This document shows positions 1,898 through 21,559 of a stretch of 30,764 bases of DNA, in pieces. Position 1 is the stretch's first letter; the number at the start of each line of letters is the position of its first letter. Position numbers and translations under genes: made by a program. Origin of the DNA: JBDREC01 sp043820105 [NCBI: Pseudomonadota bacterium] (GTDB lineage: Bacteria > Bdellovibrionota_F > JAHFAK01); the NCBI GenBank assembly GCA_043820105.1, contig JBDREC010000054.1, forward strand, positions 1 through 30,764. Direction: 5' to 3'. The notes under the pieces were generated by a model, which had not been told where the DNA came from, did no database searches, and saw only the letters and a list, made by a program, of their open reading frames with translations.

Positions 1898-2452
1898 TTA
1901 TTCTTCCTTTTTCTCAAATGATGAGACATCAAAATTAACTCTTAAATGTAGAGGGCTTTCATATCTTGGTTTAATTGTAACTTTACCTATTTTTAATAAT
2001 AAAGTGTGGGTTTCAATTTTATAAAAGTAATCAACAAGTTCTGCTAAAGTTATTTTTCTAATACTTACTTCCCATTTGTTTTCCTTAAAATCGTCAAGCG
2101 GTGATGTTGATTTTGGAGTAATTGTATCAATCTGGATGCCTAATATGGTTGCCTCTTTATCTAGAAATGTAGAAATAGAATCAGTGGGGTTTGAAAGCAT
2201 TTTGCTTGTTTTGTTGAATTTTTTCTTGAGCTCCTGGTAATCATTTTGCATTTCGCCGATTTCTTTTAGTATATTTTCTTTTTTTAATACTTGTTTATCT
2301 ATTGTCCCTAGCATTGAGTTTAAAGCATAAATTGCATAAATTATTCCAAGAATAAAAACAAGCACAAGAAAAAAGCCGAGTTTTTTTCTTTGATTTTCAT
2401 CAATTTTTTCAAAAATCACATATTTTATATTATCCCAAAAAGGTATTTTCAT
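1898..2452 (-). CDS. gspM: Type II secretion system protein GspM
   Basis: 184 residues: a short cytoplasmic N-terminus, one membrane helix at about residues 26-47 (FFLVLVFILGIIYAIYAL), a coiled-coil stretch (residues 50-95) and a small alpha/beta periplasmic domain. This is the standard GspM/PilO plan. GspM binds GspL and stabilises the inner-membrane platform. Primary sequence in this family is poorly conserved, so the call rests on topology, length and position between gspL (4 nt upstream) and gspN (adjacent). Confidence 0.8.
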   Translation of the reverse strand: MKIPFWDNIKYVIFEKIDENQRKKLGFFLVLVFILGIIYAIYALNSMLGTIDKQVLKKENILKEIGEMQNDYQELKKKFNKTSKMLSNPTDSISTFLDKEATILGIQIDTITPKSTSPLDDFKENKWEVSIRKITLAELVDYFYKIETHTLLLKIGKVTIKPRYESPLHLRVNFDVSSFEKKEE

Positions 2453-2456
2453 GGAC

Positions 2457-4058: not shown

Positions 4059-5318
4059 TTACTCTATCCTCCAGTATAGAATTCTAATTTCGTCTGAAAA
4101 ACTTTTACCCCTGTCTATTACAGAAATAATTTTCTTTTCAGATTCCTTAAATAAGCCCTTTGCAATTACTTGAAACTTTGAACTAACATTTGTTATGTAG
4201 TTTTTTTTGTCTCTGCAAAGAGCACTTAAAAAAAGATCTGCGCAACTAGTGATTTCTTCCCCAAGGCTACCATTTTCTTTGAGTTTTAAGCGTACTGTGT
4301 CCAAAAACTTAGAAGCCTCCAGGTTTTCTTTTGATTCAGAAGTTCTAAGGTCAACAACTTTTTCAGCTAGCTCCATTTTATTAGTAATGGAATCATTGAA
4401 AAAAGTAGCTATAACTTCCTTGGGTGCTACTTTAACATTAATTTTAGCGTCAATTTTTCCTGATGAATCTTCACCATAAACAGTTAAATATGGAGAAAAG
4501 GCTTTATAATACTTATCCTCCATATCAGCGATTAAATTTAGTTCTTCTATTGAATGAAAGGGTCCATTTTTAGGCTTATATGGTTTTGACAAACGATAAT
4601 ATGGAGCATTTTCATCACCACCAACTCTAGGGTTTTCAGACTCATAATTTTCATCTATCCAGTCTAGAATTTGATAAGCAAGTACTTCTCTTTTGTTGGA
4701 AGCCTCATCTTTAAAAAGTTCTTTAAAGCTTTCTTGATTAAATAAATTAATTAACAAGTCTATAGTTAGTCTATGCTCGCCAGCCGCTGGAATTTTTTCA
4801 TCTTTTAAAGCATTTATATTAATTTTATGGCTTTCATCAATTACTTCAATTTCATATCTGCCATCATCATCTGCATCTTCATCTTGCGTAGAAGGCTCTT
4901 TTTCTTCATTATCTTTTTCATCTTCTTCTGATGAAGAAAATCCAAGTAGTGAGGTAAGTAACTCAACTTGAGGAGGATAGGACATTGGCATTACATCCCA
5001 TAAATGCATGCTTGAAGGATCTATGTTGCCAAGCTGAATACCCCCTAAACCTGAGCCTGATAACATTGATTCCATTTGTGAAGATATTTGCTCTTGTGCT
5101 TGCATGTCATATTTTAAAAATATTTTTGCAAAGTTAAATGCAGCCTTTGAAAGGTAGTAAGCTTTAACATCAGACGCGAAATTGCTGGATATGCGAGAAG
5201 ATACTCTGCTGGAATAAATCAGATCAAAAATAATAGAAGTCATGAGCATTACAACGATTAATACCATAAGTATTGCTACACCTTTTTTATAATTTTTTGT
5301 TTTAAATCTTATATTCAT
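4059..5318 (-). CDS. gspK: Type II secretion minor pseudopilin GspK
   Basis: 419 residues, much larger than the other pseudopilins, as expected for GspK. The pre-pilin site is KKG/VAILMVLIVV, with Val at +1 and no Glu at +5; absence of Glu5 is characteristic of GspK, the tip subunit. The conserved GspK region is visible: SHKININAL (about 168-176), DWIDENYESENPRVGGDENA, then KPKNGPFHSIEEL and the SAM-like helices. An acidic insert (SSSEEDEKDNEEKEPSTQDE, about 128-147) may bind calcium, as other GspK proteins do, or may only be a linker. There is no strong Shine-Dalgarno. The 5' flank towards gspJ is filled with heptamer repeats. Confidence 0.88.
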   Translation of the reverse strand: MNIRFKTKNYKKGVAILMVLIVVMLMTSIIFDLIYSSRVSSRISSNFASDVKAYYLSKAAFNFAKIFLKYDMQAQEQISSQMESMLSGSGLGGIQLGNIDPSSMHLWDVMPMSYPPQVELLTSLLGFSSSEEDEKDNEEKEPSTQDEDADDDGRYEIEVIDESHKININALKDEKIPAAGEHRLTIDLLINLFNQESFKELFKDEASNKREVLAYQILDWIDENYESENPRVGGDENAPYYRLSKPYKPKNGPFHSIEELNLIADMEDKYYKAFSPYLTVYGEDSSGKIDAKINVKVAPKEVIATFFNDSITNKMELAEKVVDLRTSESKENLEASKFLDTVRLKLKENGSLGEEITSCADLFLSALCRDKKNYITNVSSKFQVIAKGLFKESEKKIISVIDRGKSFSDEIRILYWRIE

Positions 5319-5335
5319 CGCATTTCTTTGTTTTT

Positions 5336-5367
5336 AGTCGTAAGTCGTAAGTCGTAAGTCGTAAGTG
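5336..5367. repeat. GTAAGTC heptamer array (4-5 units)
   Basis: Tandem GTAAGTC units ending in GTAAGTG, in the gspJ-gspK gap just upstream of gspK. They are complementary to the CACTTAC array that follows, so the pair can form a long imperfect hairpin in the gsp transcript. Confidence 0.85.
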
Positions 5368-5377
5368 TCTGTTCAAC

Positions 5378-5411
5378 ACTTATCACTTACCGCTTACCAC
5401 TTACCACTTAT
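5378..5411. repeat. CTTACCA heptamer array overlapping the gspJ stop
   Basis: Units CTTATCA, CTTACCG, CTTACCA, CTTACCA, CTTATT at period 7. On the coding (minus) strand the array starts with the TAA of gspJ itself and reads TAAGTGG TAAGTGG. It is inverted relative to the array at 5336-5367, with about 10 nt between them. Confidence 0.85.
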
Positions 5412-6151
5412 TCCTCTACACAACCTTTCATTTTAATATTATTTCTTATTTTTTTCATAAATTCTAATTCTATTGTAATAATTGTTTTGTATTCTTCTTC
5501 ATAATCTGATTTTGGGTCAGCTAAAGTGACAGAAAATTCCACTGCCATTGGTAACCTGTTTAAAAAGTCGGCTTTGCGCGAGTCCCAATCATCGCGCCAT
5601 ATAGATCTTAAGCCGTCGCAATATCTAATGTTAAACTTCTTGATGTTTTCAGCTAGTACATATTCCATTCCACCGCTTTCAGGGTCGTCATCAATTACTG
5701 TTCCCTCTCTTCTAATAAGGTTATAAAAGCTGGAATTTCCTTTTTCTGAATCTTGTTCAACCTTATATTGAAGTTCAGATTGATCTGATTCTTTGGAGTT
5801 TTTAATAAATCTATAATGAGAAAAAGAATCAAATATTAAAGAATCTGTATCACCTTCATTGCTTCCTATAAAAACAATTTTGCTGTTTGTTTCATTCTCT
5901 TTAATAAAAGTAGAATTGAGTTCATCTGTTAATTTTGAAAATAGTAGTTGTATCGAATGATTCTTGTTATCTTCAGTTGTTATTTCATCCTTAATTTTTA
6001 ATGTTTGACTAAGAGAACTGTATAATAAGGTTGAAATTGATGCTAGAATTGCAACTGCAACTAATAACTCGATCAAGGTAAAGCCTTTGGCTAGCTTGTA
6101 GCCTGTAGCTTGTAGCTTGTTGGTTTTATATGTAAGTCTATAAAGCATCAT
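5408..6151 (-). CDS. gspJ: Type II secretion minor pseudopilin GspJ
   Basis: 247 residues. Pre-pilin peptidase site KG/FTLIELLVAVAILAS with Glu at +5, then a GspJ body (SRKADFLNRLPMAVEFSV, typical of the C-terminal GspJ region). GspJ forms the tip complex with GspI and GspK. The ATG overlaps the gspI stop (ATGA), so translation is coupled and the start is well fixed at 6151 (or the next codon, also ATG). The leader before the cleavage site is about 23 residues, longer than usual. Its part NKLQATGYKLA is encoded by a GTAGCTT-type heptamer array read on the complementary strand. The stop codon is the first codon of another heptamer array. Confidence 0.87.
   Translation of the reverse strand: MMLYRLTYKTNKLQATGYKLAKGFTLIELLVAVAILASISTLLYSSLSQTLKIKDEITTEDNKNHSIQLLFSKLTDELNSTFIKENETNSKIVFIGSNEGDTDSLIFDSFSHYRFIKNSKESDQSELQYKVEQDSEKGNSSFYNLIRREGTVIDDDPESGGMEYVLAENIKKFNIRYCDGLRSIWRDDWDSRKADFLNRLPMAVEFSVTLADPKSDYEEEYKTIITIELEFMKKIRNNIKMKGCVEE
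6092..6122. repeat. GTAGCTT heptamer array inside the gspJ coding sequence
   Basis: Units TAGCTT, GTAGCCT, GTAGCTT, GTAGCTT at period 7, lying in frame within the 5' end of gspJ and encoding part of its leader peptide. The same heptamer forms the array at 28814-28838 after pdxA. Confidence 0.85.
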
Positions 6152-6798
6152 TGTGAATCCCCGTCAGATCTGCTTGGTCCACTTGTGTTTGGCGTGGTCG
6201 AAGAGCCTCCACTGCCTGGGTTACTACCACTTGATCCACCGCTTCCACCAGCACTTTTGCTTGCCTCAGGAAGACCTGGGATTGCCTGGAGGTTTTCATC
6301 TAAGTAATGTGTCCAAATAGTATAGTCACCTATGTCTAAGCCACGTTCCCATTTTATTGTTAAAGAAAGTCTTTTAATTGATTTAGATAAAGTTTCAGCA
6401 ATAATTTTGGGGTTTAGGCCCGCCATTTGTGCTGCCATTTGAACATTTTCATTTTCGCCTTTGTCACCTCCAGCTACGATTTCTCCAATTTTACTAAGCT
6501 TATTATCTGATTCAAATTTAGCTTCCCATTTAAAATCTGGATATCCTTCTTCTTCAAAATCACCACTTACACTTTCTGGGATTTCACCAAAAAACTTGCC
6601 TTTATACTCAAGCTCAAGTTTAGACATTTTTAACTTCGCTAAAATCGCGGCTTTGGTAATGCTATCAGAATATCCAAAAAGTTTAATGGCTACAGATTGT
6701 GAGTTTAAGATTGCAATCATAACAATAGCCATTATTGACATTGCTATCATGACTTCTAATAGGGTAAAACCTCTATGGATACAATCTTTTTTAATCAT
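6148..6798 (-). CDS. gspI: Type II secretion minor pseudopilin GspI
   Basis: 216 residues. Pre-pilin site HRG/FTLLEVMIAMSIMAI with Glu at +5; the conserved GspI-type KLKMSKLELEYKG follows, then a body ending near residue 180. GspI is normally about 120-130 residues long. This one has an extended middle and a C-terminal tail of about 36 residues made almost only of Gly, Ser, Pro, Thr and Asn (GGSGGSSGSNPGSGGSS). Coupled by ATGA overlaps at both ends, to gspH and to gspJ. Confidence 0.85.
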   Translation of the reverse strand: MIKKDCIHRGFTLLEVMIAMSIMAIVMIAILNSQSVAIKLFGYSDSITKAAILAKLKMSKLELEYKGKFFGEIPESVSGDFEEEGYPDFKWEAKFESDNKLSKIGEIVAGGDKGENENVQMAAQMAGLNPKIIAETLSKSIKRLSLTIKWERGLDIGDYTIWTHYLDENLQAIPGLPEASKSAGGSGGSSGSNPGSGGSSTTPNTSGPSRSDGDSQ

Positions 6799-7415
6799 TT
6801 TTTATTTTCTCTGTATTCAACATATTCATCATGAATAGTTGTATTTCCAGTAATTGGATTTATCTCCAAGGTATAAATTGATTCGCCTGGACCTCCAAGA
6901 TATATAAATGCTTTTTCAGCAAAGCCATTTGGTAAAAATAGTATAAAATCTGAACCTTCTTTTATCTCTGTTTCTGAATGCATAGTTCTGATTCCAGATA
7001 TTCTTGCCCCATTGGGCAGAGAATATTTTTTAAGTAAAATACTATCTTCTGGTTCAAATTTTCCGTTAAAGGATATTTTTGATGCTGCATCTGCATTGTC
7101 ATCAAAAATATCTTTATTTGCACTATCTGTTTTTTCACTGTTACTATCATCGCTAATATCTTCTTCAACTAAGACTTCAGGAATAATTTGATTTTGTTCA
7201 ATATTAAAAACTAATCTATATTTTTGGTTTTTAATTGTCGCTCTATCATAGGCTAATCTAATCATGCCAGCAATTTTTGAGCATGATCTTTTTACATTCG
7301 TATCAGAAAATATACCCATTCTAGGAAGTACAAAACCCGCCATTAAACCCATGATTACCATTACAAGCATGATTTCTATAAGTGTGAAGCCTTTGCTGCT
7401 TTTATTAAAATGCAT
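6795..7415 (-). CDS. gspH: Type II secretion minor pseudopilin GspH
   Basis: 206 residues. Pre-pilin site SKG/FTLIEIMLVMVIMGLMAG, Glu at +5, then the GspH-type VKRSCSKIAGMIRLAYDRA helix and a beta-rich C-terminal domain ending LEINPITGNTTIHDEYVE. Between them lies an acidic loop rich in Asp, Ser and Asn (about residues 80-105). GspH is the subunit just below the pseudopilus tip. It follows gspG by 30 nt and overlaps gspI by ATGA. Confidence 0.87.
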   Translation of the reverse strand: MHFNKSSKGFTLIEIMLVMVIMGLMAGFVLPRMGIFSDTNVKRSCSKIAGMIRLAYDRATIKNQKYRLVFNIEQNQIIPEVLVEEDISDDSNSEKTDSANKDIFDDNADAASKISFNGKFEPEDSILLKKYSLPNGARISGIRTMHSETEIKEGSDFILFLPNGFAEKAFIYLGGPGESIYTLEINPITGNTTIHDEYVEYRENKK

Positions 7416-7445
7416 AATTAGCCTTAGTTAGCTTGTAGAAGATCA

Positions 7446-7895
7446 TTATTCTTCCATTTCTTCACTTTTCCAGTTTCCAATGTCATCTTCAGTTCCGTCC
7501 ATTGAATCTGGTCCCATTGACCAAAGATCAAAACCTTTTGCATTATTGGTTCCTGGATAAGAATATTGATAAGGATTTCCCCAAGCGTCATTTGGCACAT
7601 CATCAACAAAACCACCCTCTGGATAATTTTTACATTTACCAGATGAAGGAGGATTCATGAGAGCATCAATTCCATCTTCTGTGCTTGGATATCTGCCACA
7701 TTTTAAGTTATAGATATCCAGATTACCTGCAATTTTACTAACTTGAATTTTCACAGTATCAATTCTTGATGACTTCATAAAGGATACGGTTTTTACTGTA
7801 ACCAGTGTTGCCAGGAAACCAAGGATTGTAATAACAATCATAATTTCAATTAAGGTCATCGCTTTTTTGTTTCTTAAAGTCTTAAATCTTTTCAT
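7446..7895 (-). CDS. gspG: Type II secretion major pseudopilin GspG
   Basis: 149 residues, the usual GspG length. N-terminal hydrophobic helix MTLIEIMIVITILGFLATLV with Glu at +5, then the hallmark CGRYPSTEDGIDALMNPP and the C-terminal calcium-site region DAWGNPYQYSYPG, FDLWSMGPDSMDGTEDDIGNW. GspG polymerises into the pseudopilus that drives secretion. The residue before the cleavage site is Ala (KKA/MTLIE) instead of the near-universal Gly. The start is set by an AAGGAG about 11 nt upstream. A 100-nt gap with a heptamer array separates it from gspF; elsewhere in the operon gaps are mostly shorter. Confidence 0.93.
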   Translation of the reverse strand: MKRFKTLRNKKAMTLIEIMIVITILGFLATLVTVKTVSFMKSSRIDTVKIQVSKIAGNLDIYNLKCGRYPSTEDGIDALMNPPSSGKCKNYPEGGFVDDVPNDAWGNPYQYSYPGTNNAKGFDLWSMGPDSMDGTEDDIGNWKSEEMEE

Positions 7896-7961
7896 TTTTC
7901 AATTAACTCCTTTTTGATCAAGCAAGCTATAAAATTTAAGCAAGAAATGTTTGTTTTTTTC

Positions 7962-7996
7962 CACTTACCACTTACCACTTATAGCTTACCACTTAT
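7962..7996. repeat. CTTACCA heptamer array between gspF and gspG
   Basis: Units of CTTACCA with one TAGCTTA variant at period 7. The array begins, on the coding strand, immediately after the gspF stop codon. Same family as 5378-5411 and the reverse complement of 25884-25928. Confidence 0.85.
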
Positions 7997-9226
7997 TTAT
8001 TTAACCATTTGCTGCATACTTAAAATTGGCAGTAATACAGCTACAACTACAAACCCAACTGTAAGGCCCATGCCTACAATCATTATTGGTTCAAGTAAAG
8101 ATGTTAAAGTTGTAATTTTTGCGTCTACTTGGTTTTCATATGAAGCAGACACTCTATCTAGCATTTCCTCGAGGTTTCCAACTCTTTCACCTACTGCTAT
8201 CATATGTATTAATAGTGGTGGAAAATGTCCTGCTTTTTTTAAAGGTGTTGCTAAGTTGGAACCTTCTTTAATATCAATAGTAGCATCCTTAATAACTTCT
8301 TTTATTATTTCATTTGAAATAATATTTTTAACAATATTTAAAGCATTTAGAAGTGGAACACCGGAAATTAAAAGAGTGCTTAAGGTTCCAGCGAACCTTG
8401 ATATCGCTACGAGTCTAAAGATGGGTCCAAAAATAGGAAGCTTTAATAAAAAAGCGTGATATTTGTATCTTCCTTCTGGCCTGGAAATGTAACGTTTAAA
8501 AAGCCATACTATGGCAGCAATAATTAAAATTACTACATACCACCAATTAACTAAAATATCACTAATTGTTAATAATATTCTTGTTGGAAGTGGCAGAGCA
8601 GTATTTAAATCTTCAAATAAGGCGGTGATTTTTGGAATAACAAATGTAAATAAACCAATAACCATTATTATGGCAATTCCTGCCATAATAATTGGATAGG
8701 CCATTGTACTTGTAATTTTATTTTTAAGCTTCACTTGATTTTCCAAAAAATCAGCGAGTTTTATAAGGACTTTATCTAAAGCTCCACTTGCCTCACCAGC
8801 CTTTACCATATTGATAAATAGATTTGAAAATACTTTTGGGTAAAGTTCTAAGGCATTTCCCAGGGAGCTGCCTTCATTAACACTATCTTTAATTGCTGAT
8901 AAGACCCCCTTTAATTTAACACTCTCTGTTTGTTCTACAAGGGCTGAAAGTGCTTCAACCAAAGGTATGTGAGCAGCTACTAATGTTGAGAGTTGTCTCG
9001 TAATGTCAGCCGTTTCCTGTATGGAAATTCTGTTAAAAATAGAGCTAAGCAGTGATCCCCCAGATTGAGAAGATGAGCCTTCAGAATTTGATGATTCTTT
9101 AACAAATGTTGGAAAAACACCATCTTTTCTTAGTTTTACTTTTGCTGATGCAACTGTATCAGCGTCAACTAGACCCGAAATGTTTTTGCCTTTTTTGTTT
9201 ATACCTTTATATTCAAATACTGCCAT
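7997..9226 (-). CDS. gspF: Type II secretion inner-membrane platform protein GspF
   Basis: 409 residues, normal for GspF. MAVFEYKGINKKGKNISG at the start and two repeated T2SSF domains (about 70-195 and 270-395). Family motifs visible: ITRQLSTLVAAHIPLVEAL, GEASGALDKVLIKLADFLE in the first, and ISRFAGTLSTLLISGVPLL, VGERVGNLEEMLDRVS in the second. Three membrane helices lie at about 172-195, 222-243 and 376-400. GspF couples GspE motion to pseudopilus assembly. Its ATG overlaps the gspE stop (TAATG). Confidence 0.95.
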   Translation of the reverse strand: MAVFEYKGINKKGKNISGLVDADTVASAKVKLRKDGVFPTFVKESSNSEGSSSQSGGSLLSSIFNRISIQETADITRQLSTLVAAHIPLVEALSALVEQTESVKLKGVLSAIKDSVNEGSSLGNALELYPKVFSNLFINMVKAGEASGALDKVLIKLADFLENQVKLKNKITSTMAYPIIMAGIAIIMVIGLFTFVIPKITALFEDLNTALPLPTRILLTISDILVNWWYVVILIIAAIVWLFKRYISRPEGRYKYHAFLLKLPIFGPIFRLVAISRFAGTLSTLLISGVPLLNALNIVKNIISNEIIKEVIKDATIDIKEGSNLATPLKKAGHFPPLLIHMIAVGERVGNLEEMLDRVSASYENQVDAKITTLTSLLEPIMIVGMGLTVGFVVVAVLLPILSMQQMVK

Positions 9227-11052
9227 TATTCTATCACCGTGTCGACTTGTGTAACTTTTAATACTTCTTCAATGGTGGTAAATGCATTGGCCACCTTGTC
9301 TGCGCCATCTTCTCTAAGGGTATACATCCCTCTATCAAGCGCGGATCGTTTTAATTTTATGGTATCAGTTCCACCTAATATGTGAGATCTGAGTTCGTCA
9401 TCTATTGGTAAAAGCTCGTAGATACCCATTCTGCCTTTATATCCTGTGCCACCACATTCTTTGCAGCCAACAGCTTTATATGCGTAACCTTTTTTCATGT
9501 TTTCTTGTTTTAATCCAAGTACTGCGAGTTCTTTGTCAGTGGGATTGTATTTTAGTGCGCAAGCTGGGCAAACTTTTCTAACCAGTCTTTGAGCTAAAAC
9601 TCCAACAAGTGAGGATGAAACTAAAAAGGGCTCAATGTCCATATCAGAAAGCCGGGTAACAGCACTAAAGGAATCATTTGTATGCAAAGTAGAAAAAACA
9701 AAGTGACCTGTAAGGGATGCCTGAACTGCAATTTTAGCTGTTTCAGTATCCCTGATTTCACCAATCATTATAACATCTGGATCTTGTCTTAGTATGGCTC
9801 TTAGGCCATTTGCAAAGGTCATGTCTATTTTAGAGTTAACCTGAAGTTGGCCAATTCCTTGAAGTTGATATTCAATTGGATCTTCAACTGTAATAATGTT
9901 TTTTTCAACAGAATATATTTTATTTAAACATGCGTATAGAGTTGTTGTTTTACCACTACCTGTTGGACCAGTAACAAGAAAAATACCATGGGGTTTGTAA
10001 ATGATTTCTAAAATTTTATTATACATTTTTTCCATGAAACCAAGATCTTTTAGGTCGATTAGAACATTCGATTTGTCAAGTAGCCTCATAACAACCCTTT
10101 CCCCATAGGCAGTAGGGAGGGTGTTCATTCTTATATCAATATCTTTTCCTGCAATTTTAAGTTTAATTCTGCCATCCTGTGGTAATCTTTTTTCAGCGAT
10201 GTTTAGATTTGCCATGATTTTAAGTCTGGATGTAATGCTTGATTGTAACCTTTTTGGCGGCCTCATAATATCATGAAGAGCACCATCAACCCTGAATCTA
10301 ACAGCCACATCTTTTTCAAAAGGTTCAACGTGGACATCACTTGCCCCTTCTTTTGCAGCACGATAAAGCAAAGAATTAACAAGTCTAATTATTGGTGCTT
10401 CATCATTTGCATCAAGTAAATCTTCTGGTTCATCAAGATTTATGTTTCCAAGACCATCATCAAGATCATCCATAACACCATCAGTTGTTGTTGCTTTGTC
10501 ATAAGATTTATTAATCGCGTCTAATATACTTGTATATTTAGAAATAACGGGTTTTATATTGCTCTCTAGTAGGATCCTAATGTCATCAAGAGCGGAAAAG
10601 TCAGATGGATCTGATATCGCTACAAGTATTGCATTGTCTTTTTTTTCAATTGGCAAGAGTTTAAATTTTTTAGCAAAACTAATAGGCACTTTTTTTATTA
10701 GCTCTATATCAATTTCACTTACATCAATATTTTTCAAAAATGGAATATTTAACTGATAACTTAATGCCTTATAAAGGTCATCTTCAGTTATATATTCTTT
10801 TTTCATGAGGATTTCGCCAAGTTTTTCTTTTTTCTCGCCTTCTTGGTTTTTTTGTGTTGCTAAAGCATCATTTAATTGGTCTGCTGTAACAGCCGCCATA
10901 ACAAGTAAAATATCCCCAATGAAAGAAGAATTTGAAATTTTAAAATCCTCAGATTTTGTAAGGTTTGATAGTTTTTTCTCATCTAATGATGATAAATCTT
11001 CGAGTAAGTCATCAATTGCTTCATTTATTTGGTTTCTAATTTGTGTTTTCAT
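9226..11052 (-). CDS. gspE: Type II secretion assembly ATPase GspE
   Basis: 608 residues. The N-terminal MshEN/GspII_E-type domain carries the typical LGEILMKKEYITEDDLYKAL (about 77-96). The ATPase part shows the Walker A GPTGSGKTT (362-370), Asp box and Walker B RQDPDVIMIGEIRDTETA, His box STLHTNDS, and the tetracysteine zinc motif CPAC...CKECG (about 493-531) that marks GspE among PilB-like ATPases. It powers pseudopilus extension from the cytoplasmic face with GspL and GspF. The first ~50 residues precede the usual family start and are acidic and helical. It follows gspD directly and overlaps gspF. Confidence 0.96.
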   Translation of the reverse strand: MKTQIRNQINEAIDDLLEDLSSLDEKKLSNLTKSEDFKISNSSFIGDILLVMAAVTADQLNDALATQKNQEGEKKEKLGEILMKKEYITEDDLYKALSYQLNIPFLKNIDVSEIDIELIKKVPISFAKKFKLLPIEKKDNAILVAISDPSDFSALDDIRILLESNIKPVISKYTSILDAINKSYDKATTTDGVMDDLDDGLGNINLDEPEDLLDANDEAPIIRLVNSLLYRAAKEGASDVHVEPFEKDVAVRFRVDGALHDIMRPPKRLQSSITSRLKIMANLNIAEKRLPQDGRIKLKIAGKDIDIRMNTLPTAYGERVVMRLLDKSNVLIDLKDLGFMEKMYNKILEIIYKPHGIFLVTGPTGSGKTTTLYACLNKIYSVEKNIITVEDPIEYQLQGIGQLQVNSKIDMTFANGLRAILRQDPDVIMIGEIRDTETAKIAVQASLTGHFVFSTLHTNDSFSAVTRLSDMDIEPFLVSSSLVGVLAQRLVRKVCPACALKYNPTDKELAVLGLKQENMKKGYAYKAVGCKECGGTGYKGRMGIYELLPIDDELRSHILGGTDTIKLKRSALDRGMYTLREDGADKVANAFTTIEEVLKVTQVDTVIE

Positions 11053-13536
11053 TTATTCCTCTTTGCCTAAGTCTGAAGTATTTAATTGAGGGTCAACAAG
11101 TTTGGGTTGTATTTCAAGTTGTTTGTTCTCTTCTTGCTCAAGCGCTTCCAGGCTTTCTCCAATTCGTTTTTGTCTTTCTTTGTCTTCCTTGTTTGTTTGT
11201 TCTTCTATTCGTTCTCTTTCATCTTCAGGAACAAAGTATGGAAGAGGTTTTACATCATAATAATAATTTTTTATTTTTTCTCTTTCATCAATATCATTTT
11301 CATTTAAGAACTGTCGTCTTTCTTGTACCTTTTTAAAGAATACACCACTTAAATCACTTGTATCATTTATTACATATGGTGTGAGAAATAATAGCAAGTT
11401 AGTTTTAGTTTTTGTGTTTGATGAATTTCTAAATAACCAGCCAAGCAAAGGAATATCTCCAAGTAGTGGAATTTTGGAAACAGTATTTGTAATTTTATCA
11501 CCAATTAATCCACCAATAACAACTGTTTGTTGATCTTTAACGACTACAGAGGTTTTTGCAGACCTTTTTGAAGTAGATGGTCCCATACTTTGTATACTGG
11601 AGGGATCTTGGCCAGGAATTATTTCAACTACTTCTTCTTCAACATTCAATTTAACGTAATTTCTTGAACTAACCTGTGGTGTGATTTTTAACTTGATTGC
11701 TACATCTTCTCTGGAGACCTGAATAACAGGGTTGTTATTGGCATCATACTTTGTTCCGGAGACAAAAGGAACATTTGATCCAACTAAGATTTCTGCTTCA
11801 GTATTATCAGTTGTTAAAATATGTGGAGTTGAGAGTATGTTGACTTTTGAGCTATTTGCAGCAGCTCTTAAGATCGCACCAACAACAGGGATTGTTATAT
11901 CGCTTGAGCCAGCCAGGTCAATTGTTGCAGTTTCATTACTATAAAAACCAAGTGCCATTCCAGTTAAAGTCATTGGATCAGATAGTCCAGATTCAAAACC
12001 GCCGAAAGTTGAGGCGAAAAAATTTCCAAAGGAAGATACACTGTCAAGTCCTGCATTACCAGTAACACCACCAATGTTATAGCCGGACCCAAGTGAGATT
12101 TCCATAATTATAGATTCAACAAAAACCTGAGGTCTCCATATATCAAGTTGATTAATGATTTTTGTTAGAGTTCGATAATCGTTAGGTGATGCTGTTATTA
12201 CAAGAGAATTTGTTGGTATATCTGAAACAATGTTAACATCTCCTTCAAAGGCGATTGAATTATTTGGACCAGATGGTGCGCGTGGAGCACTTTTTCTTTT
12301 AGAGCTTGAATTGCTGCTAGAAGAAGGGCTTGTGCCTGAGACTAATGAGGTTAAAGTAGTCGCTAAGTCTTCAGATTTTGCATATTCAAGTCTAAAGACA
12401 TGGAATTTCCCTGAAAGATTATTATTATCTGGTGGTACGTCTAACCTTTTTATAACATCTTTAACTTTTTCTATTCCAGTTTCTGTTGCTAAGACTATAA
12501 TGGAATTTGTTCTTTCATAAGGAATTATCTGAGAAACAGGTATTGAAGCCAGACCAACTTCTTCAAATGAATCGTCAGTTTTTTTAGTTTTGCTTTTACT
12601 TGTTGCTCTTTTTTTGTTGTTTTCATCATTATCTGGTTTAAAAATATCAATTAAATGTTCTGCAATTTCATCAGCTGCTGCATGTCTGACTGGTATTATT
12701 TCAAGACGTTCCTGGTAGCCTTTAACATCAAGCTTCGATATTATCTTATTTAGCCGTTCAATATTTTCTCTTGAATCTGTAACAATTAAAGTATTTGTTG
12801 GTGAGTAGGAAATAACATTTCCTTCTTTTGAAACGAGCCCCTTAATTACTGAATAAATTTCACTGGCGCTAATATATTTTATTGGAATTAAGGTTGTCAT
12901 AAATAAGTCTGCATAGGCCCATGTGGAATAATTGTCATTTGTAGCAGATTGTTTAGCTTCCCGACTTTTGATTATTTTTATAAATTTGCCTTGTATAACA
13001 GTTGCAAAACCTTTTATTTCTAAGGCAGCTAAAAAAGCACGATAAGCTTCGTCAACCCTAAGCTTTTGAGGTCCAACAATTGTAATTTTGCCTCTGACTG
13101 AGTCATCAAGGATGAAATTTTTATTAACAATGTTACTAACAGCTTTTACAACATCTTTTATGTCAACGTCATTAAAATCAAAGGAGTCAACAAAAAGTTG
13201 TCCATCTTTTTTAAAAGTTCCATCTGGAATATTTTCTTTTTTACTTGTTTCTTTTTCGCTAGAAGATGTTGGTGTTTCTTTTTCTTTTTTTGGCAGCGTT
13301 CTCGTTCTATCTCGGAAACTTGGAACTCTTCTTTTTTTAGACTTGATAGTTTCTTTTTTTGTATCATCCTTAATTGACTTATCTAAAACTTGTTCATTTG
13401 GCGAGTTTTCGGATGATGACTCGGATATTTCATCAATATCTTCTTCTGTTGGGTCTGTTTTGTCTTGCGCAAATAAAAAACTAAAAATAATTGATAGTGC
13501 AACAATCATTTTAATCATTTTTAAATTCATATACAT
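11053..13536 (-). CDS. gspD: Type II secretion outer-membrane secretin GspD
   Basis: 827 residues. Signal peptide with cleavage after SFLFA (about residue 23), then about 90 very charged low-complexity residues, then the N0 domain (DFNDVDIKDVVKAVSNI, about 117), N1 (LIPIKYISASEIYSVIKGL), N2 and N3 (FHVFRLEYAKSEDLATTL), with a Ser-rich insert in N3. The secretin channel follows from about residue 470 (VFVESIIMEISLGSG) to the conserved IPLLGDIPLLGWLF and TNLLLFLTPYVI. A ~110-residue charged C-terminal tail could be a pilotin-binding S-domain. The gene lies 5 nt after gspC; AAGG precedes the ATG at 13536, and an ATG two codons later is also possible. Confidence 0.95.
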   Translation of the reverse strand: MYMNLKMIKMIVALSIIFSFLFAQDKTDPTEEDIDEISESSSENSPNEQVLDKSIKDDTKKETIKSKKRRVPSFRDRTRTLPKKEKETPTSSSEKETSKKENIPDGTFKKDGQLFVDSFDFNDVDIKDVVKAVSNIVNKNFILDDSVRGKITIVGPQKLRVDEAYRAFLAALEIKGFATVIQGKFIKIIKSREAKQSATNDNYSTWAYADLFMTTLIPIKYISASEIYSVIKGLVSKEGNVISYSPTNTLIVTDSRENIERLNKIISKLDVKGYQERLEIIPVRHAAADEIAEHLIDIFKPDNDENNKKRATSKSKTKKTDDSFEEVGLASIPVSQIIPYERTNSIIVLATETGIEKVKDVIKRLDVPPDNNNLSGKFHVFRLEYAKSEDLATTLTSLVSGTSPSSSSNSSSKRKSAPRAPSGPNNSIAFEGDVNIVSDIPTNSLVITASPNDYRTLTKIINQLDIWRPQVFVESIIMEISLGSGYNIGGVTGNAGLDSVSSFGNFFASTFGGFESGLSDPMTLTGMALGFYSNETATIDLAGSSDITIPVVGAILRAAANSSKVNILSTPHILTTDNTEAEILVGSNVPFVSGTKYDANNNPVIQVSREDVAIKLKITPQVSSRNYVKLNVEEEVVEIIPGQDPSSIQSMGPSTSKRSAKTSVVVKDQQTVVIGGLIGDKITNTVSKIPLLGDIPLLGWLFRNSSNTKTKTNLLLFLTPYVINDTSDLSGVFFKKVQERRQFLNENDIDEREKIKNYYYDVKPLPYFVPEDERERIEEQTNKEDKERQKRIGESLEALEQEENKQLEIQPKLVDPQLNTSDLGKEE

Positions 13537-13541
13537 TTTCC

Positions 13542-14468
13542 TTATTTTACTTCATAACTAAAGGTTTCTTTTTTCCCTCTTCTTTTTAAGTCTATTGAAA
13601 AATTGGATTCGTTTCTTAGTGTTTGAAAAAGAGTTAAGCTTGATTCAATATTGTTTATTTCGCTGCCATTTACTCTTTGGATGACATCACCATTTCTAAT
13701 TCCAAGTTGTCTGTAAATACTGTCAGGCTTAATAGCCACAATTTTAAATCCTTCTGTTATGCCATTTACAATGTGAGGTATCGCCCTTGCTTGCCTAAGG
13801 ATTGAATTAAGATCACTCAAGGTGGCGTCAAGTTTTTCTCTGGAAATTTCAAATTGATTTTCTCCTTTTTTTACTATTCCCTTTGATGTTCCTTCTGAAC
13901 CTGATGAGCCTTCTTTATTATCACTTGTTTGACCAAAAATATCCATGCCCTCAGATTCTAAATATTCTAAATGATCGTTTCTATTGAATTCAACAATATT
14001 TCTTCTGATTCTAACAACAGTAGCGTCTGAAAAACTATCTTCAATCATATAAGAATCAATTTCTCCTTTAAATTCAATAATGGCAATAGACATGGAAGGA
14101 TCATTTAAAACAAGTGTGCCAAGGAGTTTTGCATCTAAGGTGGTTTTTACACCTGTTTGAGTTAATACTTTTTTGCTTGTGCTTCTTTCTTCTTCAACCA
14201 TTGCAGCTAGAGCATTCTCTGAATCAAAGATGTTTCTTTTAACAATGTACTTATATTCTGACTTTGATTGTCTTTTGTTTGGTATATTTTTTGCTTGAGA
14301 TTTTTGAGAAGTTTTATTTTGTTTTTCCAGAACAGCAAAATTTGGAATAAGACTAATGTTAATTGCACGAGCAAATAAAAAAGAACAAGTAGCAATAACA
14401 AAAAGGTTTAGTAAAAGGATTTTTTTGTTTATTATAATTTCAAATATTTTCATAATTTTATTCTTCAT
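13542..14468 (-). CDS. gspC: Type II secretion protein GspC
   Basis: 308 residues. Membrane helix at about 20-37 (LNLFVIATCSFLFARAI), the homology region (HR domain) around residues 75-165 (KYIVKRNIFDSENALAA, LLGTLVLNDPSMSIAIIEF, VRIRRNIVEF), and a C-terminal PDZ-like domain (about 228-305: AIKPDSIYRQLGIRNGDVIQRVNGSEI). GspC connects the inner platform to the GspD N0 domain and can help select substrates. First gene of the operon. The ATG at 14468 lies immediately next to the -12 element of a likely sigma-54 promoter. If that promoter is used, the real start would be the second ATG at 14453, and the mRNA would have almost no leader. Confidence 0.92.
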   Translation of the reverse strand: MKNKIMKIFEIIINKKILLLNLFVIATCSFLFARAINISLIPNFAVLEKQNKTSQKSQAKNIPNKRQSKSEYKYIVKRNIFDSENALAAMVEEERSTSKKVLTQTGVKTTLDAKLLGTLVLNDPSMSIAIIEFKGEIDSYMIEDSFSDATVVRIRRNIVEFNRNDHLEYLESEGMDIFGQTSDNKEGSSGSEGTSKGIVKKGENQFEISREKLDATLSDLNSILRQARAIPHIVNGITEGFKIVAIKPDSIYRQLGIRNGDVIQRVNGSEINNIESSLTLFQTLRNESNFSIDLKRRGKKETFSYEVK

Positions 14469-14469
14469 A

Positions 14470-14484
14470 GCAAAAATCGTGCTA
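14470..14484 (-). promoter_or_regulatory. Candidate sigma-54 promoter of the gsp operon
   Basis: On the minus strand this reads TAGCACGATTTTTGC: the sigma-54 (-24/-12) consensus TGGCAC-N5-TTGC with one mismatch (A for the first G) and the correct spacing. The predicted transcript start is near 14458, inside the longest gspC frame. A motif shared with the other sigma-54 promoter (21391) lies 36 bp upstream of the -24 element. Confidence 0.5.
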
Positions 14485-14558: not shown

Positions 14559-14625
14559 ATAAGGAGTAATGATAGGTTTTTCTGACAAAATGTCAATGTT
14601 AGTAATTTTATTTTAATTATGCTTG

Positions 14626-17600
14626 TCAATTTGTCAAGTAAGGCTTGATTTTATATTTTGCTAATTTTTTGTTTAAAGTATTCCTTGTTACGCCTAACAT
14701 TTCAGCGGTTTTGGATTTATTTCCTTTAGTTTCCTTTATAGCGTTTATAATGGCGATTTTTTCTATTTCATCAAGGCGTTTGCTTTGGGTAATTTGTTCT
14801 ATTGTTTCAAATTTTTTATTATACTCAATCAAAGATTCATCAATAATTTCATCATCTGAAAGAACTATTAATTTATTCACCTCATTTTCTAATTCGCGAA
14901 TATTTCCTGGCCAATCATAATTTGAAAAATATTTTAACAACTTTTTTGAAATCTTTTTTGGTTTTTCGCTTTTGTTTATAAAGTGATCTACAAGCAATGG
15001 AATATCCTCTGTTCTTTCTCTTAATGGCGGTATATTTAATTCGATGGCATTAATTCTGAAATAAAAATCTTGTCTAAACGCTTCATTTTTAACAAGTTGG
15101 GTCAGATTCCTGTGTGTAGCTGTAATGATTCGAACATCAATTTTTTGAGTTCTATCTGAACCAACTCTTCTTATTTCTTTTTCTTGTAAGACTCTTAAAA
15201 GCTTTTTTTGCATATTTAGTGACATTTCTCCAATTTCATCAAGAAAAAGTGTTCCTCCTTCTGCTTGTTCAAAGATGCCTTTTTTATCTCTAATGGCGTC
15301 AGTGAAACTTCCTTTTACATATCCAAATAGCTCACTTTCTAAAATTGTTTCTGTAATTGCCCCACAGTTTTCAGCAAAAAACGGTTTATTTGCTCTAGTG
15401 CTTGCATTGTGAATTGCTTTAGCAATAAGCTCTTTTCCGGTTCCACTTTCTCCTGTTATTAGAATTGGGATATCACTATCAATAGTTTTTTCAATAGTGT
15501 CAAAAATAGAAAACATTTTTGGGCTTGTAGTGATAATTTTAGAAAAAACTCTTTTTGGATCTGTTATTTCTAAAGCCTCATTTTCTTCTTTTTCAAGAGG
15601 TTCAAAAGAAAGCTGTGCCTTGATTCCTTCTGGGGCATCTGAGGCTTTCAGCTCATTTGTCTTTGATTTGCCAATTATTGTAGCTGCAAGCCCTGCAAGA
15701 ATGTTAATTTTATCTACATTCTTAGTTAGACTGATATCAATTTTTGGATTTTCAATATATAGAATGCCGATTATTTTTTGCTCAAAAACAATTGGGGTCG
15801 CCAAGAAATCTTGAATGTGCTTTATTGAGTCTATGGGATTTTGCTTTATGATTTCTAATATATCTTTTAAGCAAACAGTATTATCATCCTGGCAAGCTTG
15901 ATATATTATAGCTTCAATAAGTTTGGGTGATAATTCCCTTTCTGTTAACTTGTCTATACTTGACGAAACAGATTGCGAAAATCCCTTTGGGTTTATTAAA
16001 ATTACGCTAGCATAGCTTCCTTTTCCAAATAAAAGAGCATTGCTTATTATTAGATTTAAGTTATTATCATCTGTTTGATTGGAAGATATATTAGTTGTGA
16101 TTCTCATTATTCTTGCAAGGACTTCACTTTCATCTAATTCTTCATCTGTTATTTTTACTTGATTCATGAAAGAAAAAGCATCTTGTAGGGTTGGTAAAAT
16201 CATAAAAGGTAATTTTAATGTTGCTGGTATATATTTTTGAGTGCTTCTAATTTGGCTATTAATTTTTTCATAATAATATTTGTATTTTTCTTTATTATTT
16301 TTCTTTAAATAATAATTGCCCAGTACTTCATAATATCGAAGTAATATTTGAAAATTCGTATCTTCTGCTTCGAGGTTTTCAATTCTATTGGCTATTTTTT
16401 CTGCACTATCTAAGTCATTGTGTTTAAGGGCTATTTTAAGGGCAATTGTGTTTGATTCAATAATAATTTTTCTGTCTTGATTTGATACATTTCTTGCTTC
16501 TTCAAGGTAGTCTTCAATTTGATCGAGTGCACCTAGATTAATTTTACATGTCGCGATATTTAATATTGTTATACCAAGCTCAATGTTTCTACTAACTTTT
16601 TTTAATAGCTCACTAGCTTTTTCATAGGATTTAAGTGCATTAAGATAATCATTTTTAAATTGATAAATATCTCCCAGTAATGAGTAGCAGCTAGCGAGTA
16701 AGTGGAAGTTTTTTCTTTGCATTGCGAGGTTTTGTGCTTCTGATGCAAAAAAATGTGCATTTTCCATGTCACCTGTCTCTGAATAGATTAATCCCAGGTT
16801 AAAAAGGGAAATTTCAGCTCCTGAAGGAGACCCAAGATCTTGATAAATTGTGTTTGATTCCTTATATTTTTTTAAGGCATTTAGATAGTTTCCCTGTCTT
16901 AAATAGCAATTGCCTATGTTTTGAAGCATCTGGGCTTTTCCAAAAATATCTGAAACTTCTTCTGCTTTTTTTAAGGCACTTTCATGCCATTGTATAGCAG
17001 CTTCAAAATTTTCAAGCTGATAATATGCCAAACCAATATGGTTAAATGCTTTCATAAGGCCAGGCACATCATTGATTTTTTCTGCTAAATTAAGTGAAAC
17101 AAGAAATTCATCCTTTGCCTTTTCATAATTTCCTGTATAGAATTCAACAAGACCATTTAAATTGTGAAGAATGCGTTTTTGTCCAGCACCAACGGCTTGG
17201 ATTTTTTTTATTGAATCTATAAGCACTTTTGCTTCAGTATATTTTGTTACATTTATAAAGGAAGTTATTTTTAAAAACATAAGATCTATTTTTGTTTCTA
17301 AATGATCTTCGTACTCTTCAATTTCTTTAATTGTCCTATCAATAAGTTCATTGCCCTCATTTATTTGACCCTTATTAATTTTGATTTGGCAAAGATTCTT
17401 TTGAAGATTTATTCTCTCTAGGTCTGATTCAATATAATCATTAAGTAGCAGAAAGTTTTTTTCAGCTTTTATAAAGTCTCCAACTTTTAAATGGAAGTCA
17501 CTTATTTTTAAGTAACAGTGTTTTTTGATTTTATTTCTTTCATCATAAGCAAGCGTATTAGAAGCCATTAAGATTGTTTCATATAAATTAACAGCTTTTT

Positions 17601-19611
17601 CCCAAAGCCCATTTTGAAAGTAAAAGTTTGCGACCTTGTTGTAGTATTCAATTGCTTTATCATTAATTCCTGCTTGAAGAAAGTGATAAGCAATGTTTTC
17701 TTGATAGACATTTGAGTGAGTTGGATTTTCTTCAAGTTCCATTGCAAAATGTTTATGAATTTTTCTTGTTTGATTCTTGTCTAAAAATGTTTTTAAAGGT
17801 TCAAATATTTCCTTGTCTTCAATTATATATTCATCTTTTTTGTTTTCTTTAATTAAATTTAAGTCACCTAAGAGTTTAATTCCATCAATAATTTCATTTT
17901 CATTTATTAGCGGATTATATCTTTTTAAAATGTTCAATATGAGCAGATTAGTTATACTAATATTTGAAGAAGCTATTATATAAAGGATGAGTCGTTGAAT
18001 TTGATACAGGGTTTGAATTTTTGTTTTTTTGATTTCAATAAGGCTACTTGGCAGTTCATAATTTATTTTACTATTAAGGCAAATTGTTTTATTAATAACT
18101 TTAAGAATATTTTTGGCTTTTAAGTCTGCTATTAATGTTAATGCATATCCGGGATTACCTTTACTATAACGATTTAGAAACTGTATTAACTCATTTGAAA
18201 CCTTGTAGTTGCTTGCAGTGTCAATTATTTTGTTTTGAGTTTCAATATCTGTTCTTTTTAAATTAATATGTTGGCTTGTACCGCTTTGTGGAAACCGTTC
18301 TTTTATTAGTCTCTTAAATGAATTTATTTTTTCCTTATCTGTATTAAAGGTCAATAGCATGAACATCTTGTTTTCCAAGAGTTCAAGTTCTTTAAAATAG
18401 AGTTTTAAAAATAAATAAGAATCATGTTTAAGAAAATTACAGTTTTCTATAATTACTATTGAATCATTCTGTCTGTGTATTTTATTTACATCTGCAACAA
18501 GCTTTTTTAAGAAAGCTGACCTTCTTGCATAGGATGAGTCTGTTATTAGGGAACTTTCTTTGTATGAGATTTTTTTATATGAAGAAATAAAGTTTATAAT
18601 GTCGTCAATTGGCTCTGCTTCTGAGATTATAAGCCTGTAAACAGGGATCATGTCTTTAGAATTAAGTTTAACGAACTCATCAATCAGGGTTCTTTTTCCA
18701 ATTCCAGTTTCACCATTAATAGAAAAAAGACATAGTTTTTTTTCAGAGTTTTTTTGCTGGATATAATTTGTTTGTAATTCATCAATTTCTTCATCTCTTC
18801 CTGAAAAAGTTGGTTTTGTAAGGACTATTGTATCTTTTATATTATTTAAGGAAAATTTTTCCGCTTCTTTCAATTCCTTTTCAGCATATTCTCTTTCAGT
18901 TAGTATCTTTAATTTTTCAGATCTTAATTTCAAAATAGAACTGCATTCTTCAGGAATGTATTTTTGAAAACTTTTAAAAATATAGTTAAAATGGGGTTTT
19001 GACAAATGTGTTTGTTTGCTTGTTTCGAAAAGGTAGCGTTTAGCATTTTCTTTTAGTTTGATAAGCTCACTTTCTATTCTTTTTTTCCAGCTGTTTGAAG
19101 CAATGACAAAATATTCAACGGATTTTTCAAGATTTATAGTTACTCTATTTTCTTCAACAGTAATATCTGCTTTTTTTAATTTTGAAATTTGTTCAATGGA
19201 AAGACCAAACAAGATAAATAATAGGAAAACTGATTTTCTGTTATCAGCAATATTTTCAATTTTATTTAAAAAGACACTTATATTGTCATCTGAAATTGAT
19301 TCAATTTTATCAACCTTTTTAGTTTTTATCGCTTTAGCAAGATTTTTATAGTTATAAGTAGTTGATAAAAAATTATATAGGCTTTTTATAGATGAAATAC
19401 ATTGGTTTATTGTTCTTATTGAATAACCCGAATTTTTTATGTTATCTAAAATACTGTTTAAATCTTCGGCTGTTAGGTCTGCAATTTCTTTGCTTGGATC
19501 CTTGTGCTCAAAGAATACTTCCAGTCTTTTTTTGTATTGCTCAATACTTTTAATGTTTATTTTTTTTGTTTCTAAGAGCCATTTAAAATATTCATCAAAA
19601 ATAGGCTTCAT
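14626..19611 (-). CDS. Giant sigma-54 activator: dead integrase-like / AAA / TPR / GAF / sigma-54 AAA+ / Fis HTH
   Basis: 1661 residues. (1) About 1-240: a SAM-like core-binding domain of tyrosine recombinases (SIEQYKKRLEVFFEH, YSIRTINQCISSIKSLYNFL), then a shortened recombinase catalytic fold in which GLRxSE reads GLSIEQ and the HxxR and Tyr boxes are missing; it cannot be an active recombinase. (2) About 270-600: AAA_16/STAND NTPase with P-loop GETGIGKR (300-307). (3) About 635-1115: TPR array. (4) About 1155-1320: GAF domain. (5) About 1360-1570: sigma-54 AAA+ domain with Walker A GESGTGKE (1387-1394), the GAFTGA loop as GSFTDA (1434-1439), Walker B GTLFLDEIGEM and DWPGNIRELEN. (6) About 1615-1653: Fis-type HTH (GNKSKTAEMLGVTRNTLNKK). 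It should activate sigma-54 promoters in response to a ligand, protein or DNA state sensed by the N-terminal parts. The start is supported by AGAAGG 6-7 nt upstream. Likely targets: gspC and the RNA at 21417. Confidence 0.9.
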   Translation of the reverse strand: MKPIFDEYFKWLLETKKINIKSIEQYKKRLEVFFEHKDPSKEIADLTAEDLNSILDNIKNSGYSIRTINQCISSIKSLYNFLSTTYNYKNLAKAIKTKKVDKIESISDDNISVFLNKIENIADNRKSVFLLFILFGLSIEQISKLKKADITVEENRVTINLEKSVEYFVIASNSWKKRIESELIKLKENAKRYLFETSKQTHLSKPHFNYIFKSFQKYIPEECSSILKLRSEKLKILTEREYAEKELKEAEKFSLNNIKDTIVLTKPTFSGRDEEIDELQTNYIQQKNSEKKLCLFSINGETGIGKRTLIDEFVKLNSKDMIPVYRLIISEAEPIDDIINFISSYKKISYKESSLITDSSYARRSAFLKKLVADVNKIHRQNDSIVIIENCNFLKHDSYLFLKLYFKELELLENKMFMLLTFNTDKEKINSFKRLIKERFPQSGTSQHINLKRTDIETQNKIIDTASNYKVSNELIQFLNRYSKGNPGYALTLIADLKAKNILKVINKTICLNSKINYELPSSLIEIKKTKIQTLYQIQRLILYIIASSNISITNLLILNILKRYNPLINENEIIDGIKLLGDLNLIKENKKDEYIIEDKEIFEPLKTFLDKNQTRKIHKHFAMELEENPTHSNVYQENIAYHFLQAGINDKAIEYYNKVANFYFQNGLWEKAVNLYETILMASNTLAYDERNKIKKHCYLKISDFHLKVGDFIKAEKNFLLLNDYIESDLERINLQKNLCQIKINKGQINEGNELIDRTIKEIEEYEDHLETKIDLMFLKITSFINVTKYTEAKVLIDSIKKIQAVGAGQKRILHNLNGLVEFYTGNYEKAKDEFLVSLNLAEKINDVPGLMKAFNHIGLAYYQLENFEAAIQWHESALKKAEEVSDIFGKAQMLQNIGNCYLRQGNYLNALKKYKESNTIYQDLGSPSGAEISLFNLGLIYSETGDMENAHFFASEAQNLAMQRKNFHLLASCYSLLGDIYQFKNDYLNALKSYEKASELLKKVSRNIELGITILNIATCKINLGALDQIEDYLEEARNVSNQDRKIIIESNTIALKIALKHNDLDSAEKIANRIENLEAEDTNFQILLRYYEVLGNYYLKKNNKEKYKYYYEKINSQIRSTQKYIPATLKLPFMILPTLQDAFSFMNQVKITDEELDESEVLARIMRITTNISSNQTDDNNLNLIISNALLFGKGSYASVILINPKGFSQSVSSSIDKLTERELSPKLIEAIIYQACQDDNTVCLKDILEIIKQNPIDSIKHIQDFLATPIVFEQKIIGILYIENPKIDISLTKNVDKINILAGLAATIIGKSKTNELKASDAPEGIKAQLSFEPLEKEENEALEITDPKRVFSKIITTSPKMFSIFDTIEKTIDSDIPILITGESGTGKELIAKAIHNASTRANKPFFAENCGAITETILESELFGYVKGSFTDAIRDKKGIFEQAEGGTLFLDEIGEMSLNMQKKLLRVLQEKEIRRVGSDRTQKIDVRIITATHRNLTQLVKNEAFRQDFYFRINAIELNIPPLRERTEDIPLLVDHFINKSEKPKKISKKLLKYFSNYDWPGNIRELENEVNKLIVLSDDEIIDESLIEYNKKFETIEQITQSKRLDEIEKIAIINAIKETKGNKSKTAEMLGVTRNTLNKKLAKYKIKPYLTN

Positions 19612-21390: not shown

Positions 21391-21406
21391 TGGCACACCA
21401 GTTGCA
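21391..21406 (+). promoter_or_regulatory. Sigma-54 promoter, perfect consensus
   Basis: TGGCACACCAGTTGCA matches TGGCAC-N5-TTGCW at every defined position with correct spacing. Transcription should start near 21416-21418 and needs an AAA+ enhancer-binding activator; one is encoded at 14626-19611. Confidence 0.75.
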
Positions 21407-21416
21407 ATAGTAATAT

Positions 21417-21559
21417 ATTAGAATTCATCGCGTGGCTTTAAAAAGCTATTATGAAACTTTTAACCTAATTTAATTAGGGGGCATACGCGGTGGGTTTCAT
21501 AGTGTCTGTACCCATATTTAAGGTTGATTGGAAGGCTAAGTTTAGCCTTCCTTTTTTTT
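21417..21559 (+). ncRNA. Predicted sigma-54-dependent structured small RNA or attenuated leader
   Basis: About 140 nt between a perfect sigma-54 promoter and a strong intrinsic terminator, with no plausible ORF; the only ATG (21451) gives five codons. Stems are visible: GCTTT/AAAGC (21435-21446); TATGAAAC (21450-21457) with GTTTCATA (21494-21501), enclosing CCTAATT/AATTAGG (21464-21478); and TGGGT/ACCCA (21491-21495 with 21510-21514). The last overlaps GTTTCATA, so the two could compete. No Rfam family is recognised by eye. Sigma-54-driven small RNAs such as vibrio Qrr are a precedent. Alternatively it is a regulated leader for the gene at 21751, with read-through past the terminator as the switch. 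Confidence 0.6.
21530..21559 (+). terminator. Intrinsic terminator of the small RNA
   Basis: GGAAGGCTAA and its exact complement TTAGCCTTCC enclose two bases (a real loop of four after one or two pairs open) and are followed by eight T. Works on the plus strand only; the other side has no T-run. Confidence 0.9.

Follow-up and report, generated by a model that had tools for sequence, protein, structure and literature searches.

Sigma-54 activators bind upstream sites through their helix-turn-helix and from there remodel the sigma-54 polymerase with an AAA+ ring; their usual input domains are receivers, GAF, PAS or ACT domains, or kinases. Xer recombinases carry the catalytic set R-K-H-R-[H/W]-Y (PMC5357621). 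Tyrosine recombinases that have lost this chemistry and serve in regulation or site selection are few. MrpR (YopR), the master repressor of the Bacillus phage SPbeta, has a recombinase fold without recombinase activity (PMC10516654), and TnsF of Tn6022-like transposons holds an inactivated tyrosine-recombinase domain within a multidomain protein (PMC10293859). No report of an inactivated tyrosine recombinase in a sigma-54 activator was found in the literature searched; PMC8987985, in its sections available to us, deals with active rather than dead tyrosine recombinases. Here we describe a sigma-54 activator whose N-terminal part (hereafter the head) is, as judged from profile alignment and structure model, a tyrosine recombinase by descent.

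The gene occupies part of a window of 30,764 nucleotides, which is the whole stretch of DNA that was analysed. Its 1661 codons form one frame uninterrupted by stops, and it lies exactly where a first-pass annotation had placed it; the ORF and its translation add that it is read from the minus strand (Table 1). The same annotation had seen AAA/STAND, TPR, GAF, sigma-54 AAA+ and Fis helix-turn-helix parts fused behind the head, with which the Pfam and NCBIfam models agree, the GAF part on weak evidence. Sigma54_activat matches residues 1359-1525 (E = 1.1e-70), AAA_lid_14 scores E = 1.1e-19, and AAA_16 reaches 33.2 bits from residue 269, against a cut-off of 32.6. The NifA model spans residues 1165-1629, which corresponds to GAF plus sigma-54 domain, and we infer a GAF region from the start of this model at 1165 together with weak matches to relatives. 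Judged by its sequence, the sigma-54 motor keeps its Walker A, Walker B and GAFTGA-type loop, the bEBP motor motifs being present as GESGTGKE in the translation and as GGTLFLDE and the loop GSFTDA in the alignment. With its AAA+ sigma-54 interaction domain and C-terminal Fis-type helix-turn-helix, the predicted protein has sequence features expected of a bEBP.

Table 1. Features of the regulator gene and of the adjacent gsp region, in window coordinates.
Feature	Position	Strand	Evidence
Sigma-54 activator gene with dead recombinase head (predicted)	14626..19611	minus	ORF, translation, Pfam, NCBIfam
Core-binding (SAM-like) domain, residues 1-100	19312..19611	minus	Phage_int_SAM_1; model pLDDT >90 in each ten-residue block; VIA
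Truncated, inactive catalytic-domain remnant, residues 101-232 (predicted)	18916..19311	minus	Profile match to 215; lost residues; model
Tail/linker, residues 233-268	18808..18915	minus	pLDDT <50; recombinase profile match already ended at 215
STAND/AAA_16 ATPase region, residues 269-640 (end approximate)	17692..18807	minus	AAA_16; alignment with relatives
TPR region, residues 641-1140 (approximate)	16192..17691	minus	TPR_12, E = 1.1e-29, four stretches (Pfam)
GAF-like region, residues 1141-1340 (approximate)	15592..16191	minus	NifA model from 1165; weak blastp to relatives
Sigma-54 AAA+ domain and lid, residues 1359-1596, L1 loop GSFTDA	14824..15537	minus	Pfam; motif alignment
Fis-type helix-turn-helix, residues 1613-1653	14653..14775	minus	HTH_8, E = 2.1e-14 (Pfam)
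gsp (type II secretion) gene run, candidate regulated operon	986..14468	minus	ORFs, Pfam, collinear loci
Sigma-54 -24/-12-like site, one mismatch, candidate target	14469..14484	minus	Motif scan; directly before gspC ATG
Two TGACA-N3-TGTCA-like palindromes	14583..14636	minus	14583-14595 exact; 14624-14636 one mismatch

Residues 1-240 had been read as a SAM-like core-binding domain followed by a cut-down XerC-type catalytic fold, and Pfam, profile and model are in accord with this reading. Phage_int_SAM_1 matches residues 6-82 (E = 1.7e-9; 38.3 bits, cut-off 22.3), and the best 25 of the 35 Pfam families at E <= 1 include none that models the recombinase catalytic domain. When residues 1-267 are searched against PDB sequences with phmmer, Pyrococcus abyssi XerA (4a8e) is matched over 19-217 with an E-value of 3.8e-7; this search alone is not decisive, because designed helical proteins are also in its match list (residues 39-75, E = 2.1e-5 and 9.1e-5). 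A profile of 63 Xer and integrase proteins, 48 from viral contigs and 15 from genome loci, aligns at positions 10-231 of its 298 to residues 2-215 with a score of 63.0 bits. Among 200 composition shuffles of these residues the highest score is 5.8 bits, so the match to the Xers is not due to chance; residues 85-270 alone score 16.6 bits.

An AlphaFold2 model of residues 1-270 (mean pLDDT 81.3, pTM 0.65) is good to about residue 232, with pLDDT below 50 from residue 233. Its input alignment consisted of the 48 viral-contig recombinases, that is, of true recombinases themselves, and a single-sequence model of the head, at a pLDDT of 36, is uninformative as a control; the sequence evidence for recombinase identity is independent of the model. 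Structure prediction and a fold search had been proposed as the check on this claim, and all 50 PDB matches listed by Foldseek are tyrosine recombinases, with lambda Int-DNA complexes reaching a TM of 0.56-0.58 of the query. Among the 50 viral matches listed, those that are named are integrases or recombinase-domain proteins and the rest are nameless. VIA-align gives a Z of 12.7 for lambda Int (1z19; rmsd 4.5 over 229 residues) and 12.8 for 3nrw, the N-terminal domain of an integrase (96 residues at rmsd 1.8), the first rows listed from another class being DNA topoisomerases at Z 8.8, preceded by one row (2khv) whose title gives no class; Z values of such size may be frequent among helical folds. 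At Z 10.4, VIA also matches the phi3T repressor SroF, both with its antirepressor and bound to DNA.

What has been lost is seen most clearly in the profile alignment. Arg I, invariant in the 63 Xers, corresponds to Ser138 of the head, and the Glu that follows it (63/63) to Gln141, which bears out the first-pass reading that GLRxSE has become GLSIEQ. The two hairpin lysines (62/63 and 52/63 Xers) are Glu162 and Val165, and the hairpin Arg (59/63) is Tyr167. The profile match then stops at residue 215, short of the HxxR, LGH (H/W) and Tyr boxes, so that the head comprises the core-binding domain plus about two thirds of the catalytic domain, counted from its start, rather than the complete fold; the HxxR and tyrosine boxes, described earlier as gone, are indeed absent from the alignable region. 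For 48 of the 63 Xers, retrieval relied on patterns of the RHSFATH and TTQIYTH boxes, and the conservation of those boxes is therefore partly by construction; Arg I lies outside the patterns.

Forced global MAFFT alignments can place the tail, residues 216-264, on the HxxR-to-Tyr segment, in two differing ways, and thereby bring Y242 in one and R230 in the other into catalytic columns. It is from these columns that a still-working recombinase with an unusual active site might be argued, but the two alignments contradict each other and neither is supported by the profile. The tail is not counted as recombinase, because the profile alignment ends at 215 and the model falls below a pLDDT of 50 from 233. 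With Arg I and the hairpin lysines replaced, and the HxxR, H/W and Tyr boxes absent, a working enzyme is extremely improbable. The set R-K-H-R-[H/W]-Y is not found in the head, and on looking we found neither a fold unlike that of tyrosine recombinases nor an active Arg-His-Arg-Tyr set. By alignment and model, then, the head retains a recombinase fold with a lost active site, as in the MrpR/TnsF class, and is catalytically dead, the last third of its catalytic domain missing.

The surroundings of this head become apparent by comparison with related regulators. The GspD of the window is nearest to that of the phylum of 'Deltaproteobacteria bacterium isolate OFTM172' (42-43% identity; 76 genomes), and its PdxA is nearest to that of another genome (42% identity over 4-338; 54 genomes); with the two markers pointing apart, the window can be assigned no more closely than to a deep Deltaproteobacteria-like lineage. 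The phylum with the nearest GspD, represented by 46 genomes, is rich in long regulators. Twenty stretches were fetched from it, frame length being the main ground of choice. Eighteen of their frames, 1444-1738 aa long, match the sigma-54 domain in full and were aligned with the present protein; two others (1305 and 1002 aa) lack such a match and were left out. Across the resulting 19 sequences, Sigma54_activat and TPR_12 each occur in 19, AAA_16 and GAF_2 each in 17, and HTH_8 in 16, and our protein follows the kinase-headed regulators in the order STAND, TPR, GAF and sigma-54, its GAF by weak evidence. All 18 fetched regulators have Pkinase at the N-terminus, where our protein instead has Phage_int_SAM_1, and so the recombinase remnant occupies the kinase position. 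A Ser/Thr kinase had been named as a frequent N-terminus of this layout, and a dead integrase as the replacement of the usual input domain; both fit what these relatives show.

An inactive STAND ATPase, proposed from GKR in Walker A and EN in Walker B, was rejected, as these motifs vary in the relatives too. The loop GSFTDA recurs in one of 21 loops from a pattern scan of the relatives' loci. Separately, the GAFTGA loop reads GAFTHA in six kinase-headed regulators of the same phylum.

A search of 1595 genomes from eight phyla turned up no second fusion; in it, few candidates were scored per genome (three to seven in the large groups, and 15 for query 1-1160 in the 46 genomes), so that it shows rarity, not absence, and a diverged fusion could be missed. 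Residues 1-620 served as the query for 1549 of these genomes (297, 195, 290, 245, 8, 347 and 167), and residues 1-1160 and 1-270 for the 46 genomes of the phylum with the nearest GspD. In neither the 1549 nor the 46 did the recombinase part match a frame of at least 500 aa. Those recombinase-part matches to query 1-620 that were obtained sat in frames of 217-496 aa, and the few matches in longer frames concerned the STAND or TPR part. Peptide patterns found no close relatives in the viral and genome contigs searched. In a tblastn search of plasmids with the whole protein, the best 20 of 2520 records included sigma-54 activators that match its C-terminal part, and no place covered 80% of the query. 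The fusion is apparently rare, an unusual rearrangement of known parts.

Such rarity, along with the strong divergence of the head from the Xers (about 20-29% identity in the matches listed), could also reflect a recent non-adaptive fusion or a decaying passenger, with a regulator that works without its head. Against this, the frame is intact over 1661 codons, and the GC3 of the head (0.20) resembles that of the rest of the gene (0.16-0.24) and of four gsp genes (0.19-0.24). Moreover, the core-binding domain has retained several of its hydrophobic core positions despite the loss of catalysis, which fits selection on the fold. We consider a passenger fairly unlikely.

Because no second member was found, conservation cannot show selection on any surface of the head. 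DNA binding by the head is plausible, and there is evidence on both sides. The core-binding fold is kept, its net charge of +3 is inside the range of 15 Xers (-2 to +12), and MrpR and TnsF are precedents; nevertheless, the Arg found in the core-binding domain of 48 of the 63 Xers is Gln70 here, and the head has lost both the residues that grip the phosphate and the C-terminal third. The first-pass interpretation is supported in part; the contacts at both ends of the protein, the DNA looping and the site sensing that it also proposed are conjectural. The losses, of catalytic and phosphate-contact residues and of the third that closes the DNA clamp, would suit a remnant that works off DNA as a protein-protein or regulatory module, be it for docking, as an oligomer clamp, or in autoinhibition of the STAND or AAA+ part, as would its position, which in relatives is held by a kinase, a signalling rather than a DNA-binding domain. 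Less easily accommodated by this alternative are the retained fold, the overall basic character of the head (47 K+R vs 38 D+E over residues 1-262) and the fact that known inactive recombinases retained DNA binding or site choice. A protein-contact role is possible if somewhat doubtful, and nearly as likely as DNA contact. The explanation that we prefer as a whole, tentatively and with a little less than even confidence, is a sigma-54 activator in which the kinase has been swapped for a dead recombinase that acts as a DNA-contact module.

Candidate target genes are close at hand. The gsp run lies downstream of the regulator on the same strand, across a gap of 157 bases. GspC is identified by Pfam and GspE by annotated matches, with collinear matches in the gsp loci of relatives; most other gsp names are a reading of sequence and collinear loci, and the last gene of the run has an AsmA match only (28.6 bits, under the cut-off of 29.8). 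A scan for TGGCAC-N5-TTGCW with at most one mismatch returned four sites in the window against 0.93 expected, with 2 of 100 shuffles reaching four; they lie at 3819-3834 (within the gspL frame), 14484-14469, 21391-21406 (perfect) and 21695-21710. The second abuts the gspC ATG and could serve this gene only if translation began at 14453 or was nearly leaderless. Two sigma-70-like promoters (TTGACA; 11/12 matches) are also present in the gap upstream of gspC. The TGACA/TGTCA palindromes in this region are candidate enhancer sites or, equally, -35 boxes of the two sigma-70-like promoters. The window has nine such pairs, which is not significant, as simulation gives 3.8 on average and up to 14, and no copy with up to two mismatches is found near 21391. 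Since the pair is not significant and overlaps the two TTGACA promoters, no enhancer is claimed.

Among 32 gspC loci of relatives, one of which has no upstream sequence, a single locus has a sigma-54 activator directly upstream of gspC, and in three others a sigma-54 match lies at a distance of 3-6.5 kb. The adjacent activator, an NtrC-type response regulator in 'Proteobacteria bacterium isolate ZC4RG40' (L066:1526-2908, plus strand), is a positional analogue. The sigma-54-like site suggests that the present regulator may control the gsp operon, an arrangement of sequence that is equally compatible with the two sigma-70-like promoters. Given the rare adjacency of activator and gspC and the competing promoters, we offer gsp control as a guess with some support; a literature search for gsp control by such a regulator, or for the architecture itself, found no report among the titles, abstracts and passages screened.

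Elsewhere in the window, the perfect site at 21391-21406 (plus strand) is followed by a strong intrinsic terminator at 21530-21551 and a T run, and no ORF of at least 60 aa is found on the plus strand between the two. The 145 nt of 21418-21562, terminator hairpin included, fold at -42.9 kcal/mol (z = -4.0; none of 200 shuffles as good) and match no Rfam family at threshold, the best being FopS with 26.3 bits versus 56. Positions 21391-21562 (plus strand) possibly encode a sigma-54-dependent small RNA. The site at 21695-21710 is just upstream of a gene, within 21695-23172 (plus strand), with a borderline match to M15 peptidase (23.5 bits, cut-off 23.2).

To return to the preferred reading of a DNA-contact module, the N-terminal kinase of the (kinase)-STAND-TPR-GAF-sigma-54 layout would have been exchanged for a tyrosine-recombinase domain that lost catalysis. 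The resulting one-component regulator would take signals via its STAND, TPR and GAF regions; these would release the AAA+ ring, which, anchored at enhancer sites by the C-terminal Fis helix-turn-helix, would open sigma-54 promoters. As in MrpR or TnsF, the recombinase remnant might contact DNA without cutting it and thereby tether or place the N-terminus. Of possible targets, the adjacent gsp operon would be the likeliest, which we propose with lower confidence than the rest. A remnant used as input would show that enzymes of mobile elements can be recruited into sigma-54 circuits. A more specific version, in which the dead recombinase reads a dif- or att-like palindrome and the Fis helix-turn-helix an enhancer, so that activation (perhaps of the secretion genes) is set at two DNA-reading ends by site presence, copy number or topology, strikes us as improbable; if true, it would mean that an integrase had become a sensor of sites, coupled to an AAA+ motor under STAND control.

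Compared with known systems, the protein shares with kinase-STAND-TPR-GAF-sigma-54 regulators the same domain order and a like length (1661 aa against 1444-1738), but where they have an N-terminal kinase it has a predicted inactive tyrosine recombinase. With XerC, XerD, XerA and lambda integrase the head shares its core-binding fold and, of the catalytic fold, the first two thirds; unlike them, it is without the catalytic residues and the C-terminal third. MrpR resembles the head in having Arg I replaced and its fold used in regulation, its first H and W/H being replaced as well. It differs as a stand-alone repressor that has a complete CB+CAT fold and keeps the Lys and Tyr, whereas the head is more degraded, lacks part of the fold and is fused to a sigma-54 activator; MrpR has been shown to bind DNA, and for the head such binding is plausible. 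TnsF is alike in the recruitment of a dead recombinase domain into a multidomain protein, but it is a transposon target selector with zinc fingers, and the present protein a predicted transcription activator. The short list of regulatory inactivated tyrosine recombinases would thereby gain a regulator of many domains, encoded next to a secretion operon.
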